Shown: piece after piece, positions 2,831 to 6,310 of the stretch
Position numbering within the stretch: the stretch's first letter is position 1
Layout: every line of letters begins with the position of its first letter
DNA from: Candidatus Aminicenantota bacterium
GTDB taxonomy: Bacteria > Acidobacteriota > Aminicenantia > Aminicenantales > UBA4085
Direction of reading: 5' to 3'
Assembly (NCBI GenBank): GCA_003141555.1
Contig: PLMN01000022.1
Span: forward strand, 1 to 53,212
Length of the DNA stretch: 53,212 nt
Notes under the pieces: model-generated
What the model was told of the DNA's origin: nothing
The model's input: only the letters and a program-made list of their open reading frames with translations
The model's database searches: none
Translations under genes and position numbers: made by a program

Positions 2831-3277
2831 TTATAGCAATTTTTGGTTTCTATCTGGGAAATATGGGCGTAGTTTCTCAAGTTGCTTCCTCGTCGGCTGG
2901 TGAATCCCTCTTTCCCAACTCGATAGAGTCGATTGATCGACTCCTAACATCTCGGAAAACACTTTCTGCGAAAGCCCATGCACTCGGCGATAGTTTTTGA
3001 GTTTTTCTGCCAGATTCCCGACTTCAGCTTCGAAAGGATCGTGTCCTAAAAACTCGATAATCTTCGGAATTTGGGCGAAGGAGGGCTGGACCCGGTTATG
3101 CTCCCAGAGATATATCGTGATGTCCGAAACATTAAGGTTGAGGGAAAGTTGGGCTTTGGTGAGCTTCAAATCGATCCTTCGGGCTCGAATCCAATCGCCC
3201 CACGTTCGACAAATATCAGGGTATTTCTCCCTATGAACCGGCTTTCTTCCCCTTAAGGTTAAATGGCAAAAGGGCAA
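2831..3277 (-). CDS. Double helix-turn-helix (XRE-type) regulator
   Basis: Small DNA-binding protein with two Cro/C1-type HTH units: residues about 27-72 (core KLTKAQLSLNLNVSDITIY followed by LWEHNR) and 86-140 (core GLSQKVFSEMLGVDQSTLSS followed by WERG). The two-HTH layout with the phrase IIEFLGHDPFE between them is a recognisable bacterial family often found in several copies per genome; its targets are unknown. The start is uncertain. The open frame runs upstream without an ATG, and TTG at 3277 is a guess with only a weak Shine-Dalgarno; the conserved part begins near KPVHREKYPD. Its 5' end abuts a comM fragment on the other strand, so the natural start may have been lost. A decayed paralogue of its N-terminal half lies at 3760-3921. 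It stops 89 nt before the phosphodiesterase start and could be read in the same transcript. Confidence 0.7.
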   Translation of the reverse strand: MPFCHLTLRGRKPVHREKYPDICRTWGDWIRARRIDLKLTKAQLSLNLNVSDITIYLWEHNRVQPSFAQIPKIIEFLGHDPFEAEVGNLAEKLKNYRRVHGLSQKVFSEMLGVDQSTLSSWERGIHQPTRKQLEKLRPYFPDRNQKLL

Positions 3278-3279
3278 CG

Positions 3280-3759
3280 CAACCCTGCGAAGATGTCCTC
3301 CGCGGGCTGGCCCGCCGGGAGGAGGAATGCACGGACGTCCAGCGGGGCAAATACTACGCCAAGATCTCGGGGCCGCTGCTCGACCGGATTGATATCCAGG
3401 TCGAGGTGCCCGGGGTGAAGTTCCAGGACATCGCCTCCCGGGCGGAAGGGGAGAGCTCAATGTCCATCCGGGAGAGGGTCGTCCGGGCGCGAAGGATCCA
3501 GCTGGCCCGGTTCCGGGACCGCGGGATCTTTGCCAACGCCCGGATGGGACCGAAGGAGGTCAAAGCCTTCTGCCGGATCGACCGCGAAGGTGAGCGGCTG
3601 CTCGAGGCGGCGGTGACCAAGCTGGGATTCAGCGTGCGGGCGTATGACCGATCGCTCAAAGTGGCTCGGACGATCGCCGACCTGGCGGGGGCGGAGGACA
3701 TCGGCCCGTCCCATCTGAGCGAGGCCATCCAATATCGGGCGATGGACCGATATTATTGA
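3280..3759 (+). pseudogene. comM: 3' fragment of comM (YifB-like magnesium chelatase family ATPase)
   Basis: The reading frame (from about 3280 to the TGA at 3757-3759) encodes only the last ~160 residues of a ComM/YifB protein, whose family length is about 500. Recognisable C-terminal signatures are KISGPLLDRIDIQVEVP, the ESS..IRERV..AR.IQ..RF stretch, LGFSVRAYDRSLKVARTIA and the terminal SEAIQYRAMDR. The AAA+ Walker motifs and N-terminal Lon-like domain are missing and no start signal is present, so this is a truncated relic. The fragment is GC-rich like the host background, while both flanks are AT-rich. Its 5' end stops at the promoter side of one HTH gene, and its stop codon directly abuts a decayed second copy of that HTH gene. 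A second copy of its last ~50 bp lies at 6261-6310. Confidence 0.8.
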
Positions 3760-3760
3760 T
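3711..3760 (+). repeat. Left copy of comM 3'-end direct repeat
   Basis: The last ~50 bp of the comM fragment, ending with its TGA stop. It matches 6261-6310 at roughly 85% identity by eye, with one single-base deletion in the right copy. The two copies bracket an AT-rich two-gene cassette, the layout expected for att-like ends of an element inserted at a gene's 3' end. No integrase gene is seen between them. Confidence 0.65.
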
Positions 3761-3921
3761 CTGTTCTTCTCCCAGAGATATATCGTTGTATCGTCAATAT
3801 GAAATTTGGATGAAAGTTGACGTTTGGTGAGCTTCAAATCGAGCCGTCGGGCTTTGATGTGATCGCCCCCGTGTTCTTAGGAAATCAGGGTATTCCTCCC
3901 TGTGAATCGGCTTTATATGGC
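3760..3921 (-). pseudogene. Decayed N-terminal copy of the double-HTH regulator
   Basis: Read on the minus strand this stretch aligns base for base with the 5' part of the regulator at 2831-3277. Both encode KP(V/I)HRE(K/E)YPD and then ARR(I/L)DLKLTK and TIYLWE(H/K)NR. In this copy an extra base in the G-run around 3865-3872 shifts the frame between the RTRG and DHIKARR segments. The protein is cut off immediately after LWEKNR, where the comM stop codon begins. The second HTH and the inter-domain segment are gone. It is non-functional as it stands, and is evidence for duplication of the regulator followed by breakage at comM. Confidence 0.75.
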
Positions 3922-3923
3922 AA

Positions 3924-5270
3924 CTAGAAATCCCAATTTTCCGTTTGTTCCCATAGTCGTCTCTCATACTCTTCTTTATCTGAGAGAAAACACTCCTCCA
4001 TAGACTTGACCTTTTTTGATGTGTAAATCATCCTCTCCATGAACTCAGGCGCCCGTCTGATTCCCTCGCCAATATTGAGTAGGACAACATCTTCTTCTCT
4101 GATGTGGCCCTTTCTTAAAGCTTTTATGAATCCGCCTACGACGATTGCCGCAGCCGGTCCTATTCTGACCGACCGCTTAAACGCAACCAAACGGGCCATG
4201 AGCACCGTTGCCTGTTCATCGCACGAAATGATCTCACCCCCGCTCGCTCGGACCAGCGGGCTCAAGACAGGGTAAGTTGTGGGATACCCCGTGGCCAACG
4301 TGGGAATCATCGTCTCTGGATTGTGATAGATGGGGTACGTTTTCTCCCAACCTTCAGGAAATCCTTTTAGCTTCGCTTCTCCCCACGCGTCCGCCATCGG
4401 AGAGCATTTGTTAGATTGGACAAGGATAAATCTCGGCATCCTTTTGATCAGATTCAAAGGCTCAAGCTCTTTGCATCCTTTATCGATAGCCAGCGGCCCC
4501 GTGCCTCCGCTCAAAGCCTGAATGTAGACAGTTGGAAATTCAGCCATCATTCTCAGCCATTCAAAAAGCATGGTCTTCTTGGCTTCCAGTCTCATCGGAT
4601 CAAAATTGCCGGCCGCAAGAGGGATTTTCATTTTATTGGAAAAATCAAGGGCCATCTCTTTTGCTCTCGTATAATCTCCCTTGACCCGGAATACCTGTTG
4701 TCCGAAGCAGGCGATCTCCGCCTCTTGAGATGGAGAGGAGTTTTCAGGGATAAAGGCATAGAGGGAGATCCCGGCTGCGGTCAAATATCGTGAATAGGAA
4801 ACCGCAATGTTTCCGGTACTGGCCACGACATAATTCTTGATGTTGTTTTCTTTAAGAACGCTCGCGACCACGGTCCCGGAGAGGTCTTTAAAAGTTCCCG
4901 TGGAGTAATTGTCATCATGTCGATGAGCATAGACGTGACAATTGAGGTGAAACCTCTCCCTTGCGTACTCCTCCAGGAATTCCCATCTGTCGATAGGGAC
5001 AATCCCCTCTCCGCCGGTCACGATATTCCTCCTCTCGTTTAAAGGGAGAAAATCAAAGTAATGCCAAAGGCCGTTCGAGGCGAGGGCGTTTTTTTTAATA
5101 AGATTTTTCAGTTTTTCGATATTTTCACGATATCTCACCTCTGCCCTCTTGCTGCCGCACTCCGGACATCTCTGGTCGGAGTTGAGCCATTTTGAAAAAT
5201 CTTCGATTTCAGAGCCGCACAGGCTGCAGCGCAGATAGAATTTTTTGCTGGTTCCCATATCTGTCTTCAT
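3924..5270 (-). CDS. Threonine-synthase-like PLP enzyme, candidate cysteate synthase
   Basis: A 448-residue fold-type II pyridoxal-phosphate enzyme of the threonine synthase family. A four-cysteine zinc ribbon sits at the N-terminus (C15, C18, C35, C38). The PLP-lysine motif STGTFKD places the Schiff-base lysine near K128, and ASTGNIAVS (near 150-158) is the substrate/phosphate loop. A glycine-rich LSGGTGPL near 244-251 would hold the cofactor phosphate. Ordinary threonine synthase would convert O-phosphohomoserine to threonine, but the gene lies 13 nt downstream of an APS/PAPS-reductase-type gene and is apparently cotranscribed with it. In Methanosarcina a threonine synthase paralogue, cysteate synthase, makes L-cysteate from O-phosphoserine and sulfite. 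That reaction would use the product of the neighbouring gene, so cysteate synthase is a reasonable but unproven call. Base composition is AT-rich relative to the dcw region. Family assignment is firm, substrate is inference. Confidence 0.75.
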   Translation of the reverse strand: MKTDMGTSKKFYLRCSLCGSEIEDFSKWLNSDQRCPECGSKRAEVRYRENIEKLKNLIKKNALASNGLWHYFDFLPLNERRNIVTGGEGIVPIDRWEFLEEYARERFHLNCHVYAHRHDDNYSTGTFKDLSGTVVASVLKENNIKNYVVASTGNIAVSYSRYLTAAGISLYAFIPENSSPSQEAEIACFGQQVFRVKGDYTRAKEMALDFSNKMKIPLAAGNFDPMRLEAKKTMLFEWLRMMAEFPTVYIQALSGGTGPLAIDKGCKELEPLNLIKRMPRFILVQSNKCSPMADAWGEAKLKGFPEGWEKTYPIYHNPETMIPTLATGYPTTYPVLSPLVRASGGEIISCDEQATVLMARLVAFKRSVRIGPAAAIVVGGFIKALRKGHIREEDVVLLNIGEGIRRAPEFMERMIYTSKKVKSMEECFLSDKEEYERRLWEQTENWDF

Positions 5271-5283
5271 CCCTTCTTTGAGA

Positions 5284-6000
5284 TCATAATGCTTCTTTTG
5301 TTTTTTCGGCTGTCAAATCCGTATGCAAACCGCACTCCAACTTGCTTCTTCCACTCCAGCGCCCGGCCCTCTCTCCATTTTCGTGTTCATTTTTTGAAGT
5401 GCAGCAGGAAGGAAAACAGCCAATGGACGTATATCCCTGGTCGTACAACGGATTGCAGGGAAGGTTGTGTTCGCGGATATATGCCCAGACTTTCTGCCCC
5501 GTCCAATTCACGAGCGGATGAATGCGCAAATTCCTCTCATTGTCACGCATTAAGGGCATAAAATTCTTTCTCGTTTCTGCCTGGTCTTTCCGGATGGCCG
5601 AGATCCAGTTTCTCACGCCAATCTCTTTTTTTAGATTTCTGAGAGGGGTTACCTTATTGACCAGGCAACAGAAATCGGGGTCTTTTTCGTATAGGAATCG
5701 ACCGTGCTTCTGTTCAAGCTTCCTCTTGCTCATCATGGGGATTATCGTGTGAACGTTGAGATTCCATTCTTTCGTTATTCTGTTTTTAAATTCGAGCGTT
5801 TCTGGAAAATGGAATCCGGTATCGATGAAAAAAATGGGAAAGTCAAAGGTTATCCTTTTGATCATATGGATGAGGACGATCCCCGAGGCTTGAAAAGAAG
5901 ACGTCATGGCCGCCTGGTAGGGAAATATCTTTATCGCCCATTCGAGAATTTCTTCGGGCTCTGAATGTCTGAATTTCTCATTGACCTCTTTTATATCCAT
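5284..6000 (-). CDS. cysH: APS/PAPS reductase-type protein (CysH family)
   Basis: Predicted to reduce adenylylsulfate (APS) or PAPS to sulfite in the cytoplasm. The 238-residue protein has the nucleotide loop TSSFQASG (33-40), DTGFHFPET (60-68), the paired cysteines of the iron-sulfur site (C111, C112), WISAIRKDQAETR (132-144) and the C-terminal catalytic KLECGLHT (C223). The CC pair and the Cys-rich YTSIGC segment indicate the [4Fe-4S] APS-reductase subtype. The second half of that cluster motif is odd: APS reductases carry C-x-x-C (GCEPCT), while this protein has CFPSCC (C195, C199, C200), an in-frame extra residue. It may still bind a cluster through C200 or C199. It is the first gene of a two-gene unit with the PLP enzyme, 13 nt apart, behind a plausible promoter at 6079-6106. 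No sulfate adenylyltransferase or sulfite reductase is present in the window. Confidence 0.85.
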   Translation of the reverse strand: MDIKEVNEKFRHSEPEEILEWAIKIFPYQAAMTSSFQASGIVLIHMIKRITFDFPIFFIDTGFHFPETLEFKNRITKEWNLNVHTIIPMMSKRKLEQKHGRFLYEKDPDFCCLVNKVTPLRNLKKEIGVRNWISAIRKDQAETRKNFMPLMRDNERNLRIHPLVNWTGQKVWAYIREHNLPCNPLYDQGYTSIGCFPSCCTSKNEHENGERAGRWSGRSKLECGLHTDLTAEKTKEAL

Positions 6001-6260: not shown

Positions 6261-6310
6261 CCTATCTCAGCGAGGCGATCCAGTATCGGCCATGGACCGG
6301 AATTATTGAT
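6261..6310 (+). repeat. Right copy of comM 3'-end direct repeat
   Basis: This ~50-bp stretch reproduces the end of comM (3711-3760), including codons for LSEAIQYR and the bases around the stop codon, but with one base deleted so the stop is out of frame. No other part of comM is next to it. GC content rises sharply right after it, so it marks the right border of the AT-rich cassette. Confidence 0.65.

Follow-up and report, generated by a model that had tools for sequence, protein, structure and literature searches.

We examined a 53,212-nucleotide stretch of DNA, hereafter the window (contig PLMN01000022.1 of assembly GCA_003141555.1), from the 3.79 Mb genome of a Candidatus Aminicenantota bacterium (Acidobacteriota, order Aminicenantales), in which two adjacent reverse-strand genes probably form a module for the synthesis of cysteate. 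The upstream gene (5284..6000, reverse strand) is an intact open reading frame for a CysH-type adenosine 5'-phosphosulfate/3'-phosphoadenosine 5'-phosphosulfate (APS/PAPS) reductase of 238 amino acids (PF01507, 151.5 bits, cut-off 22.5), and the downstream gene (3924..5270, reverse strand), also intact, encodes a threonine-synthase-like, fold-type II pyridoxal 5'-phosphate (PLP) enzyme of 448 amino acids (PF00291, 133.4 bits, gathering cut-off 35). This agrees with an earlier reading of the sequence alone (the sequence-only reading), which had described such a pair 13 nucleotides apart (gap at 5271..5283, reverse strand). That reading had also given the two genes a shared promoter, and here only part of the claim stands: the short gap makes co-transcription likely, but a promoter scan found one weak sigma-70-like match (6215-6186, reverse strand), and shuffled sequences yield as many. 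The PLP-enzyme motifs that it had quoted are present, the first (TGTFKD) containing the predicted PLP-binding lysine K128 (codon at 4887..4889, reverse strand), which is invariant in 11 homologues and aligns with the FKD lysine of threonine synthases, and the second (ASTGN) lying at residues 150-154. An N-terminal segment with four cysteines that are likewise invariant in 11 homologues (C15, C18, C35 and C38; 5157..5228, reverse strand) resembles a zinc ribbon; its matches to zinc ribbons are weak, and a sequence search with it gave no informative structural match.

CysH passes TIGR00434 (220.8 bits, cut-off 165.1) as well as NF002537, and its catalytic cysteine (C223, in the motif ECGLH) and two further cysteine pairs (C111-C112 and C195-x4-C200) are conserved in 10 homologues. 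Iron-sulfur APS reductases carry a cluster motif made up of CC plus CxxC. The window protein has the CC and scores 168 bits against TIGR02055 (cut-off 235.3); its second pair is spaced C-x4-C (SIGCFPPxCT) in place of C-x2-C, a spacing found in 10 of 10 CysH proteins of this family (window 5284-6000; loci L108-L118).

The two genes are conserved as a pair. Among 94 genomes of the order, 11 encode the PLP protein, and in 10 of these 11 cysH is its immediate neighbour on the same strand, with a short gap or an overlap at the other pair loci. Identity to the window proteins is 60-90% for the PLP homologues and 47-89% for CysH, and the pairwise identities of the two proteins correlate closely (r=0.89, 45 genome pairs). 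The flanking genes, in contrast, mostly differ between the loci read, and only near relatives have some in common: the pair lies in an ftsZ/hut region in the window and elsewhere beside tldD/tldE-like genes, adenine phosphoribosyltransferase, methionyl-tRNA synthetase and others. A pairing that is conserved among otherwise mostly different neighbours is not due to chance.

A plausible consumer of cysteate is encoded elsewhere in the same genome (genomes, contigs and loci are given below by our own handles, beginning with G, C and L; the window's genome is G000). Of its four alpha-oxoamine synthases, the one at C30:339756-341003 scores 378.6 bits against the Alistipes SulA (7u7h) and 376.4 against the cysteate-C-fatty acyltransferase 28eh, but only 242 bits against 2-amino-3-ketobutyrate CoA ligase (KBL) and 236 against serine palmitoyltransferase (SPT). 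Lys281 is the diagnostic residue of the SulA cysteate acyltransferase (Radka et al., PMC9304779). In our alignment each of the order's 17 SulA-like proteins has a lysine at this position, which is occupied by Ala, Asn, Cys, Tyr, Thr or Ser in the 33 other alpha-oxoamine synthases. The cysteate acyltransferase that the sequence-only reading had named as worth looking for is thus represented in the genome by a SulA-type enzyme with Lys281. Directly after SulA in G000, G297 and G298 is a gene for a short-chain dehydrogenase (131.6 bits to NF049977, cut-off 400); its position is that expected of a 3-ketocapnine reductase, yet the enzyme class is too generic for it to be assigned. At locus L074 SulA is accompanied by a CPBP protein, several dehydrogenases and a protein without a Pfam match that resembles a GNAT-like protein beside SulA in L075, and a similar set, CPBP plus epimerase-type dehydrogenases, adjoins cysH and the PLP gene at L017; these sets tie the two kinds of locus together.

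The PLP protein and the SulA-like enzyme also tend to occur in the same genomes. Among the 94 genomes nine have both, two the PLP protein alone, seven SulA alone and 76 neither (Fisher p=5e-7; p=3.4e-4 when counted by genus; neither test takes phylogeny into account). Identity in SulA is less closely correlated with that in the pair (0.60 for the PLP protein, 0.48 for CysH), which suggests that SulA has in part evolved separately from the pair. More telling are two relatives that have SulA and lack the PLP protein, G363 of the window's genus and G369 of the genus of G370, in which a canonical archaeal-type cysteate synthase is present (504-513 bits to TIGR03844); G370 carries the window type of PLP protein, and its congener G369 the canonical enzyme instead. 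No other single observation hints as strongly at a shared function of the two proteins as this swap between genomes whose downstream enzyme is the same, and we propose that the PLP enzyme is exchangeable with CapA2 among close relatives. One genome, G315, has both proteins. The searches with TIGR03844 and with the CapA1 model covered 20 genomes, and no protein exceeded the CapA1 cut-off (NF053679) in any of the 20. The canonical enzymes of G369, G315 and G363 (L136, L137 and L138, respectively; 504-513 bits) have no CysH match near them, within flanks of 1.5 kb or less.

The supply of sulfur fits a sulfite-consuming partner. CysD, CysN and APS kinase are encoded in the window's genome (C30:219-5283), CysN and APS kinase having been identified by reading the sequence. 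The NIR_SIR siroheme sulfite reductase family was found in none of 23 genomes, including six that have the PLP protein, while 11 of 14 control genomes match it; the sulfite made by CysH would thus have no standard reductive outlet. The sequence-only reading had noted the lack of a sulfite reductase and of a cysteine synthase nearby. The former observation extends to the whole genome, whereas the latter does not, as a cysteine-synthase-like gene lies at C12:22870.

The pathway that we envisage runs as follows. CysD, CysN and APS kinase would produce APS and PAPS from sulfate, and CysH would reduce these to sulfite. The PLP enzyme would then form aminoacrylate from O-phosphoserine on its cofactor and add the sulfite supplied by its operon partner, giving L-cysteate, which SulA would condense with acyl-acyl carrier protein to 3-ketocapnine; reduction by the dehydrogenase encoded after SulA would yield capnine, and N-acylation a sulfonolipid. 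Genes for most of these steps are present, and we infer every enzymatic step. We consider it likely that the pair is a sulfite-to-cysteate module whose PLP enzyme adds a third kind to the bacterial cysteate synthases CapA1 and CapA2, and that it feeds capnine-type sulfonolipids. The fuller proposal, of a third cysteate synthase that evolved independently, moves as a two-gene cassette together with a reductase that provides its sulfite, and supplies the sulfonolipid pathway of the Aminicenantes (Acidobacteriota), we favour by a narrower measure, at somewhat better than even chances. The route from CysH sulfite through cysteate to sulfonolipids, as the sequence-only reading had sketched it, is well supported by genome context (the missing sulfite reductase, the SulA-type enzyme, the co-occurrence and the replacement by canonical enzymes); what the model scores do not bear out is membership of the PLP protein in the Methanosarcina-type family.

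Several observations weigh against the cysteate module, and some of them concern the affinity of the PLP protein itself. The sequence-only reading had placed it in the cysteate synthase family of Methanosarcina. Its score against the archaeal-type/CapA2 model TIGR03844, however, is 114.5 bits (112.1 in the genome search) for a cut-off of 324.9, and the CapA1 model NF053679 (cut-off 600 bits) is absent among its matches; it thus reaches the cut-off of no cysteate synthase model and, as far as sequence models can tell, falls outside the known cysteate synthase families. It could instead be a divergent threonine synthase, or another enzyme of O-phosphohomoserine, that merely lies beside cysH. Threonine synthases are its best sequence matches in the PDB, and NF006050, a threonine synthase model, is its best-scoring NCBIfam model. 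The AlphaFold2 model (mean predicted local distance difference test score 77.8, predicted template-modelling score 0.82) is nearest in fold to threonine synthases (Z about 30-31, root-mean-square deviation about 3 A), and only then matches CapA2 of Alistipes (9k3c; Z 26.7, 3.3 A, 366 residues). Sequence and predicted fold are therefore both nearer to threonine synthase than to CapA2, and taken alone would favour a threonine-synthase relative. Yet the protein falls short of the threonine synthase cut-offs too (149 bits to NF006050, cut-off 303; 60.7 to TIGR00260, cut-off 167.1), while another protein of the genome, at C20:160254, passes TIGR00260 with 172.7 bits, so that the PLP protein is not the sole threonine synthase candidate. 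A tree of 30 proteins keeps it apart from the threonine synthases: 11 rows make up a PLP-protein clade (support 100/99), to which neither the 16 threonine synthases nor the three canonical Aminicenantes cysteate synthases belong. The latter, those of G363, G369 and G315, stood in place of full-length Bacteroidota CapA1 and CapA2, and the references included distant threonine-synthase-like matches from a plasmid search, which returned only such matches, at less than 30% identity. The split between threonine synthases and all others has support of 99/97 in this unrooted tree with long stems. The alignment further places GN (residues 221-222) where threonine synthases have the NS of the segment NSVNPxR, which we take to bind the substrate phosphate. 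With its retention beside cysH and its co-occurrence with SulA, these differences make a threonine synthase unlikely, and the PLP protein probably functions like a cysteate synthase, although outside the known families, a specificity that we infer from its context. Two motifs considered as marks of cysteate synthases, G-GTG and PM-AW, were dropped, as threonine synthases of the NF006050 type have similar ones (L007).

The remaining points against a cysteate module concern its distribution. None of the loci read has SulA next to the cysH-PLP pair, and G264 has a PLP gene with no CysH found. Two genomes with the PLP protein (G315 and G364) have no SulA-like enzyme that we found, and in five genomes with SulA a cysteate synthase of either type is missing; several genomes of these two groups are incomplete metagenome-assembled genomes. 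The neglect of phylogeny by the Fisher tests counts on the same side. G264 is peculiar also in having two SulA-like genes (L073, L093). The separate location of SulA, together with G315 and G364, would suit a module that makes cysteate for another end, such as taurine, sulfolactate, coenzyme M or an exported sulfonate. The sequence-only reading had allowed for coenzyme M and taurine-like products; we have nothing specific in support of either, and genes for their synthesis were not systematically searched. Since the PLP protein is statistically linked to SulA, and Lys281 marks the SulA-like enzyme as one that specifically uses cysteate (PMC9304779), we regard such an end as improbable. The PLP protein might also be an O-phosphoserine sulfhydrylase or a similar enzyme of cysteine synthesis, with CysH serving ordinary sulfate assimilation. 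CysH does ordinarily serve cysteine synthesis, and O-phosphoserine and sulfide are known substrates of some fold-type II enzymes. With no NIR_SIR protein in any genome tested, however, the usual route from sulfite to sulfide is missing, the genome has a cysteine-synthase-like gene elsewhere, and the link with SulA would be left unexplained; we hold this possibility to be very slight.

The proposed module can be compared with several known systems. The archaeal-type cysteate synthase (TIGR03844; CapA2 of Alistipes finegoldii, 9k3c) resembles the PLP protein in being a fold-type II enzyme that derives from threonine-synthase stock and is extended at its N terminus, and the two would catalyse the same reaction, but they are about 19% identical over 366 residues and belong to separate clades, and the PLP protein is paired with CysH, which is absent from the flanks (1.5 kb or less) of the three canonical Aminicenantes genes. 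CapA1 (NF053679; Capnocytophaga, 9k2p) would share reaction and pathway, but is cysteine-synthase-like, and the PLP protein does not match its model. Threonine synthases (TIGR00260, NF006050) have the FKD lysine and the S/TGN loop in common with the PLP protein, which differs in its extra zinc ribbon and in GN for NS. The window CysH departs from the usual one in its PLP-enzyme operon partner, its C-x4-C spacing and the lack of a sulfite reductase in the genome. As in the capnine pathway of Bacteroidota (CapA, SulA/CapB, CapC), the genome combines a Lys281-bearing SulA homologue and its neighbouring short-chain dehydrogenase with a proposed source of cysteate; in contrast to it, the proposed cysteate synthase is different, CysH is dedicated, and an SPT-like enzyme is encoded in the same genome.

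Sulfonolipids have been linked with gliding motility, with choanoflagellate development and with inflammation of the host. If our reading is true, an uncultured lineage of Acidobacteriota makes them, and their presence no longer singles out Bacteroidota; a further, third cysteate synthase type in Acidobacteriota would be a novel variant. Threonine-synthase stock would have given rise to cysteate synthesis on at least two occasions and cysteine-synthase stock on one, and the coupling of a cysteate synthase to a sulfite supply of its own would explain how sulfate is used for sulfonate in cells that lack sulfite reductase. A 2023 review describes sulfonolipid synthesis as apparently limited to Bacteroidota, of which Alistipes and Odoribacter use the archaeal-type cysteate synthase (PMC10191378), and among the papers listed by our literature search none on Aminicenantes deals with capnine or sulfonolipids. 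According to the same review, Bacteroidota may have either sphingolipids or sulfonolipids but not both (PMC10191378); in the window's genome an SPT-like enzyme (C8:36521, with Ala at the Lys281 position) and the SulA-like enzyme coexist (L079:4468-5667, L072:4682-6010).

The pair also bears signs of mobility. Its GC content is 47%, against 62% for the window, and its DNA is 91% identical to that of the nearest relative, while the adjoining genes are 76-78% identical. It is flanked by a 51-bp direct repeat, whose left copy (3710..3760) lies at the 3' end of a comM/yifB-like fragment and is 84% identical to the right copy (6261..6310), a possible trace of insertion. The low GC content, the flanking repeat and the higher DNA identity than that of the neighbours together suggest that the pair was acquired horizontally as a unit. 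The arrangement of the fragment (window 3406-3759; presumably comM/yifB-like, to judge from its C-terminal sequence) and the second copy of its 3' end on either side of the pair looks as if the insertion had taken place at the end of that gene. An apparent CysH-PLP fusion in G367 (a 700-amino-acid open frame) was rejected, as the two matches lie in different frames. Four pairs of our genome handles (G297 and G370, G298 and G366, G299 and G331, G300 and G330) appear from matching contig numbers and positions to denote the same genomes.

Three further observations were made. A PF01747-type ATP sulfurylase is present in the other 22 of the 23 genomes tested, whereas the window's genome uses CysD/CysN with a nearby APS kinase (L033:219-5283). 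A protein of the D-cysteine desulfhydrase family (L013:1375-2511; G000:C30:411360) has as its best NCBIfam model the D-cysteate sulfo-lyase CuyA, at 327.5 bits for a cut-off of 450. Finally, a diverged direct repeat in the window (3095-3245 and 3763-3914; 107 nucleotides at 76% and 48 nucleotides at 77% identity) covers part of an XRE-type helix-turn-helix gene that adjoins the pair.
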